This document shows positions 5,446-6,884 of a DNA stretch of 64,000 nucleotides, piece by piece. Both the position numbers and the translations under genes were made by a program. The notes beneath the pieces are model-generated. The model ran no database searches and was not told the origin of the DNA. It saw only the letters and a list, made by a program, of their open reading frames with translations. Where the stretch lies: positions 1,827,906 to 1,891,905 of the forward strand of contig JAVKHP010000001.1 in assembly GCA_031459855.1 (NCBI GenBank), read 5' to 3'. Every line of letters begins with the position of its first letter. Position 1 is the stretch's first letter. This DNA is from Armatimonadota bacterium (GTDB lineage: Bacteria; Sysuimicrobiota; Sysuimicrobiia; Sysuimicrobiales; Humicultoraceae).

Positions 5446-6819
5446 TCAGGGTCTTGCGCCCGACGGCGTGAAGGTCAACGACGCGATCTGGCCGATCCGT
5501 CCCGGCACGCCGAGGCGCAGACCGTTGACCGTGAGGTCGGCCGCCCCCGCGTTTCCCGTCCTGATGTGGATCACGCGACGGGCAGTCCACTGCCGGATCT
5601 CGCCGGCGCGCACGACGCCCTCGAAGACCCGAATGCCGTCGACTGTGACCCGCAGCCACGACCTGCCGGTGGCACTCAAGATCACGCTGACGCCCATGGT
5701 CGCGTGGCCGCGGGCGGGCAGGGCGCTCCGAGGTGTCTCCGCAACCTCGCCGGGTGCGCCGTTCGGGCGAGCCCCCACGTGCGCGGGGCCTGTCGGAGAC
5801 CGGGCCTGCGGGGGCAGTTCGGGGGAACCCGAGCGGCCCATAACGATCGACGGCGGCGCGGTAGCACCAGCGGCTGCGGGATCCGCGGCGTGCGTCGCCG
5901 GACCGCCTACCGCGATCGTGTCGCGGTCGGCGCCGGCGGGCGCGACCCCACGATCCAGGGCACCGGCCCCGTCTGTCGGTGGAGAGACAGCTCGATGCTG
6001 CGCGACGGCCAACGACCGGAGAGAACGCCCCGGCAGGTACGACGCGCCAGCGGCGGCGAGGAGCACAACTGCGCCCACCACCGCCCATCCCCTCGGGCGT
6101 CTGCGCTGCGGCCTGGACGGGCCGGGCAGAGCTCGTGCGTCCGGCAGGTGCCGCACCGCATCCGGGACGAGCCCCACACGCGCTGGTCCTGCGCGCAACA
6201 TGCCTGCACCCGCCGCCACGTCGGCGGCGGGCGGCGGCTTCCGGAGGGTCGGCCCGGTGCGCGCGCCGCCTCGGAGCACATGCCGGACAACGCACACGCT
6301 GCGTGCGCGTGCCCGCAGATGGCGGGGCAACCGGTAGAAGGCCAGGCACCGCGCCAGGTCGGTCTCCAGATCGCGGGCGGCTCGCTCGCCTTCTGCCACC
6401 CAGCGAGCGCGCCAGGCGCGGAAGCGGGCTGCGGCGGCCTCGCGGTCGCCCGCCAGGAAGATCCTGCGGGCCTCCTCCGTGCACCCCGCGTGCCTTCGAC
6501 CGTCCACGCTGCGCCGCATGACGGCCAGCCGGTGAGGGATGCTGTACTGGATAGCGACACCCGGGAACGTCGCTTCCACGGCGCGCACCACCGCTGGCGT
6601 GCCGTCACAACACACCAGCACAGGGGTAGCCGTGCCGGCCCGGAGTTCCTGGAGCAGGCTCGTCCAGGCAGGGGTGTCCACGCGTGCGACGCGACGCAGT
6701 CCCGCCACGGTGAGCGTGCCATCGGGAGCCACCGCGAGTGCGCACAACGTGTGGGAGGCCGTGTCCTCGGCGCTGGGCGGCACGCTGCCCAGCAGGAGCA
6801 CCATCGGGGTCTGCGGCAT
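5446..6819 (-). CDS. fusion of a mutator-type transposase-like domain, membrane helix and RodZ C-terminal-like (DUF4115) domain
   Basis: 457-residue protein. The ATG at 6819 follows AAGGAGGTG at good spacing. Residues about 25-195 resemble the catalytic half of IS256/Mutator transposases: LAVAPDGTLTVAGL, LVCCDGTPAVVRAVEATFPG, a His near residue 96 in the IPHRLAVMRR segment, then helices with W140 and a FYRLPRHLRARARS segment. The expected first Asp and the Glu near the end of the domain are not visible, so transposition activity is doubtful. Residues 244-262 form one membrane helix (GWAVVGAVVLLAAAGASYL). A Pro/Ala-rich linker follows. Residues 376-454 look like the extracytoplasmic RodZ domain: VSVILSATGRSWLRVTVDG, GEIRQWTARR, and a strand-rich end. 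By analogy with RodZ the N-terminus would be cytoplasmic. The function is unknown. Confidence 0.75.
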   Translation of the reverse strand: MPQTPMVLLLGSVPPSAEDTASHTLCALAVAPDGTLTVAGLRRVARVDTPAWTSLLQELRAGTATPVLVCCDGTPAVVRAVEATFPGVAIQYSIPHRLAVMRRSVDGRRHAGCTEEARRIFLAGDREAAAARFRAWRARWVAEGERAARDLETDLARCLAFYRLPRHLRARARSVCVVRHVLRGGARTGPTLRKPPPAADVAAGAGMLRAGPARVGLVPDAVRHLPDARALPGPSRPQRRRPRGWAVVGAVVLLAAAGASYLPGRSLRSLAVAQHRAVSPPTDGAGALDRGVAPAGADRDTIAVGGPATHAADPAAAGATAPPSIVMGRSGSPELPPQARSPTGPAHVGARPNGAPGEVAETPRSALPARGHATMGVSVILSATGRSWLRVTVDGIRVFEGVVRAGEIRQWTARRVIHIRTGNAGAADLTVNGLRLGVPGRIGQIASLTFTPSGARP

Positions 6820-6884
6820 ACGCGCAGCACCTCCTTCCGGCGGCGCGTCCGGGCCTCGCCGACCATCGGTACCCGCCGCTGGAG

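Follow-up and report, generated by a model that had tools for sequence, protein, structure and literature searches.

How does a protein come to join part of a transposase, through a membrane helix, to part of RodZ? One gene in a 64,000-nucleotide stretch of an Armatimonadota genome (the window; genome G000 of our survey) raises the question, and an initial annotation answered it with a transposase that lost catalysis and was captured as the cytoplasmic part of a cell-shape or envelope-linked protein. The explanation that we favor, and consider probable with real room for doubt, is that the product is a bitopic membrane protein in which a domesticated, catalytically dead IS256-family core, cytoplasmic in location, is fused to a RodZ-type ectodomain; the core would then be a predicted scaffold or binding module.

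The gene and its product

The frame occupies 5446–6819 on the minus strand, the strand of all features below (457 codons plus stop; ATG at 6819–6817), with a Shine-Dalgarno-like GGAAGGAGG at 6830–6838 (complement strand), 10 nt upstream of the ATG. The uninterrupted frame and strong ribosome site first described are thus both present; the strand had not been given. A scan for promoters and terminators found no site resembling either for this gene. GC3 is coding-like at both ends of the gene (0.80–0.88), and the codon-position GC signal is weaker and flatter in the linker between them.

The domain order is also as annotated. An RNase H-like core of the IS256/Mutator type takes up approximately residues 6–190 (6250–6804; Pfam, NCBIfam, alignment and model); hydropathy places a single membrane helix at residues 244–262 (6034–6090); a Pro/Ala-rich linker, recognized by composition, runs through residues 263–380 (5680–6033); and a DUF4115-like RodZ_C domain, found with Pfam and by comparison with other RodZ_C sequences, follows at residues 381–449 (5473–5679). 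Pfam Transposase_mut matches residues 22–174 with 56.9 bits (E 2.2e-15; curated cut-off 21), and RodZ_C matches residues 381–449 with 58.9 bits (E 5e-16; curated cut-off 23.9). The NCBIfam model transpos_IS256 scores 61 bits over residues 24–174; its cut-off of 150 applies to whole proteins, and a protein that holds part of a transposase only would be expected to fall short of it. That the three elements reside in one protein we regard as close to certain. Net charge is +6 in the 15 residues before the helix and +3 after it, so that the likelier topology, judged from charge, is N-in/C-out, with the core in the cytoplasm and RodZ_C outside.

Fold and catalytic residues of the core

The RNase H-like fold on which the annotation had staked its claim is found in the predicted structure. 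A model of residues 1–205 was built from an alignment that included 11 IS256 cores (17–21% identity), themselves obtained by single-protein scans of viral contigs. It has a mean pLDDT of 76 and a pTM of 0.73, shows strands and helices in RNase H order, including the helical insertion expected of IS256, and is poorly predicted after residue 175. Over residues 1–196 its best match in the PDB is the ISCth4 transposase (Foldseek E 9e-9; VIA-align Z 16.6, rmsd 4.4, 195 residues), and retroviral integrase cores follow more weakly, at Z about 10; the IS256 sequences in the alignment bias the model towards this fold. The Pfam matches and the sequence-only matches to the PDB are independent of that alignment, and a profile of the core clade finds the ISCth4 entry (6xg8) with E 1e-17, the single sequence with E 3e-4. 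A single-sequence fold of the whole protein was set aside (mean pLDDT 39).

The proposed loss of first Asp and final Glu is borne out when the core is aligned with true IS256 transposases and with those relatives in which both residues persist: two of the three residues of the D-D-E triad are replaced, the first Asp by Leu at codon 10 (6790–6792) and the Glu by Arg at codon 179 (6283–6285). The second Asp is kept at codon 72 (6604–6606), as is the His of the IS256 C-x2-H motif at codon 96 (6532–6534), its Cys being lost. From the known DDE mechanism, such a core is unlikely to carry out transposition chemistry. The IS256 N-terminal DNA-binding region is also absent: the Transposase_mut match begins at profile position 181 of 379, compared with coverage of positions 28–371 in a true IS256 transposase of the phylum. 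Nor does the gene look like a mobile element, being single copy in its genome and bracketed by no terminal inverted repeats.

A clade of probably captured cores

Where did such a core come from? In 43 genomes of the phylum, eight loci score 250–327 bits against a profile of the core, and every other match scores 124 or less. The profile was built from those same eight sequences, which makes their scores high by construction; it is the clean gap to true transposases, together with the tree, that points to a separate clade. In that tree the eight cores (the window core, five that we call group A, and the paralogues G002_B and G004_C) form one clade against 18 transposases, with 100/100 support. 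Within the phylum the clade is confined to five genera, all in the window's own family; five further genomes of the family (G006–G010) do not have it. The window core sits inside this clade and shares its lack of the DNA-binding region.

Group A (G001–G005) has kept D-D-E; it has neither the IS256 N-terminal region nor RodZ_C, and in all five proteins a hydrophobic 19-mer lies 0–3 residues from the C-terminal end, whereas the window protein has lost two catalytic residues and carries its helix internally, with linker and RodZ_C behind it. In four of the five genomes (G002–G005) the group-A gene is convergent with an adjoining UPF0102/yraN gene, followed by RNase HII (rnhB), signal peptidase (lepB), L19 (rplS), TrmD, RimM, a KH protein and SRP54/ffh; these families were scanned in G004, RimM in G003. 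The G001 gene lies elsewhere, outside the yraN-rnhB-ffh setting, and the window genome's own yraN is in a different setting with no core-clade gene beside it. Among group-A cores dN/dS is 0.2–0.4, with dS near saturation.

The group-A loci (L033 7344–8573, L034 14000–15136, L035 7215–8432, L036 7149–8546 and L037 7174–8637) have a long linker ahead of the C-terminal helix. Of the paralogues, G002_B (L038 3–1379) runs off the end of its contig and has Ala for the Glu; G004_C (L039 6858–7721) has no membrane helix, with Ser for the second Asp and Arg for the Glu, and the frame after it reads, by reading only, like threonine synthase. In G028, locus L054 holds two divergent partial IS256-like frames (564–1370, minus; 1408–2175, plus).

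Profile scans of viral contigs, with the core clade or with IS256 alignments of the phylum, found no relatives, and the best plasmid matches listed by tblastn with a group-A protein were ordinary IS256 transposases of at most 33% identity. PADLOC has no match for the window gene and so lends no support to a defense role. The core has very probably been captured by the host. Here the initial annotation needs one amendment: the fusion and the loss of catalysis stand, and the timing probably does not, as group A, host-fixed and tail-anchored with D-D-E and without RodZ_C, suggests that capture probably preceded the fusion.

The RodZ half

The RodZ_C domain was compared with those of 40 other proteins of the phylum and with one from a Chloroflexi contig; a scan of genome contigs found only a distant RodZ_C. 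By pattern, reading or Pfam HTH_25, 39 of the 40 carry the RodZ HTH, in keeping with the premise that this is the usual cytoplasmic domain; the one in which none was seen (L027, G031) is truncated at the edge of its contig. Two genomes of another family, G025 and G026, have a second HTH-RodZ_C paralogue (L079 2019–3107; L080 2481–3581), whose branch in the RodZ_C tree is long. The window protein has the single membrane helix, linker and RodZ_C of RodZ and no N-terminal HTH_25, which the RodZ of its own genome does have. Among the 43 phylum genomes, it alone joins a transposase core to RodZ_C.

The source of the domain is harder to place. By tree path it is nearest to RodZ_C of G004 and G003, with a highest identity of 52% (G003), but the tree, of 87 columns, gives the window copy a loose position and does not single out a donor. 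It does exclude recent copying from the genome's own rodZ: that RodZ, the only match elsewhere in the genome to the whole protein, pairs with G006. As for G002_B, the single RodZ_C found in G002 belongs to its normal RodZ, which leaves that truncated paralogue without a visible RodZ_C partner.

A role in cell shape, as first proposed, goes further than the evidence supports. In Escherichia coli the HTH of RodZ binds MreB (PMC6946637; also PMC4047632). The window protein has no HTH and is not expected to bind MreB by that route, and its genome has an ordinary, intact RodZ elsewhere, and MreB.

Alternative explanations

The genomic slot bears on whether the gene is functional at all. It is flanked by a Cons_hypoth698 (YeiH-type) gene on one side and a Peptidase_S58 gene on the other. 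In G001 these two and the genes that follow are arranged and oriented alike, and the space between the two contains no relative of the window gene. The matching G001 slot (L191 4226–7225, a 3-kb gap) has other frames, including a Phd/YefM antitoxin paired with a PIN-domain frame. The slot is thus variable in content, and the window gene could be a transient resident.

One alternative to a functional fusion supposes that a degenerate core paralogue was joined in frame, by chance, to a RodZ fragment, and that the product is drifting without function. A single-copy gene, seen as a fusion in one genome and sitting where the syntenic G001 has no relative, would fit this, as would the loss of two catalytic residues, the losses in both other paralogues and the weaker codon bias of the linker. 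Of the checks first suggested, the search of related genomes found the fusion in none but the window genome, and dN/dS of the window core against its relatives is about 0.43–0.63 with dS saturated, which is weaker evidence of constraint than that for group A and would fit relaxed selection too. A drifting gene would not be expected, however, to keep 457 codons open behind a strong ribosome site, to retain GC3 of coding type at its two ends, and to have two domains each nearly complete for the part present; moreover, third codon positions diverge more than first and second positions between window and group A. Decay is in our judgment unlikely.

A second alternative, to which we give still less credence, is that the core continues to bind nucleic acid, so that the fusion tethers DNA (or RNA) to the envelope. 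An RNase H-type fold close to the ISCth4 transposase, the retention of Asp72 and His96, and a basic stretch ahead of the membrane helix are all consistent with this; the absence of the IS256 DNA-binding region throughout the core clade argues against it. Finally, a misassembly or sequencing artefact that joins two genes, for which the restriction of the fusion to one genome might speak, is very improbable: the frame runs unbroken well inside a contig of 3.15 Mb, and so is not a contig-edge join, its flanks are collinear with G001, neither half is near-identical to any other copy in the genome that could have furnished a chimera, and no related genome searched has two separate genes at the site.

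A proposed mechanism

On the reading that we prefer, a domesticated core fused to a RodZ-type ectodomain, events might have run as follows. In the ancestral group-A protein, the C-terminal membrane helix would hold the RNase H-fold core against the membrane's inner face; the lineage of the window would have gained a RodZ-like ectodomain behind a membrane helix, which would turn the C-terminus towards the cell wall; the core, freed from catalysis, could then offer nucleic acid or protein a binding site or scaffold; and its placement at sites of cell-wall synthesis or division would come from the ectodomain. This mechanism for the core is tentative.

The behavior of E. coli RodZ bears on the last step. 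The protein still reaches the division site when most of its cytoplasmic part is removed, and its disordered periplasmic part self-associates (PMC6946637). Its periplasmic domain is nonetheless largely dispensable for rod shape (PMC6946637), which makes a targeting role for the window ectodomain uncertain.

A broader perspective, somewhat more doubtful again, supposes that one bacterial lineage made a host enzyme of an IS256 core, tail-anchored in the membrane, with D-D-E intact, under constraint and encoded beside yraN-rnhB; the window copy would be a dead member of this family wired to the envelope through a RodZ ectodomain, a module of nucleic-acid fold coupled to wall synthesis or division.

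Comparison with known systems

It is in eukaryotes that the capture of transposases by their hosts is best documented, and our search of the open literature found no described membrane-anchored transposase domestication in bacteria. The domain order likewise appears new, as the annotation had supposed, within the limited set of domain libraries and open literature searched.

Each known relative resembles the window protein in part. IS256/Mutator transposases such as ISCth4 (PDB 6xg8) and ISTth4 share its RNase H-like core, second Asp, motif His and helical segment between second Asp and Glu; it differs from them in having no N-terminal DNA-binding region, first Asp or Glu, in possessing a membrane helix and RodZ_C, and in being a single copy in which no terminal inverted repeats are seen. 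RodZ is built in the same order, from cytoplasmic domain through single membrane helix and Pro/Ala linker to RodZ_C, but its HTH is replaced here by the transposase core. The tail-anchored group-A proteins, for which we found no name, belong to the same core clade and share the single membrane helix and the missing DNA-binding region, whereas they keep D-D-E, have a long linker before the helix and end there.

A clade that mixes D-D-E intact and lost, with and without an envelope domain, makes it possible to ask directly what a captured core does after it has ceased to move DNA, and by what steps it acquired a membrane tail and an ectodomain. SETMAR of primates, a SET domain fused to an inactive transposase, offers a parallel by analogy only: it too joins a host domain to a transposase that has lost activity, but the transposase is of another superfamily and the protein is not membrane-bound (PMC8704517).
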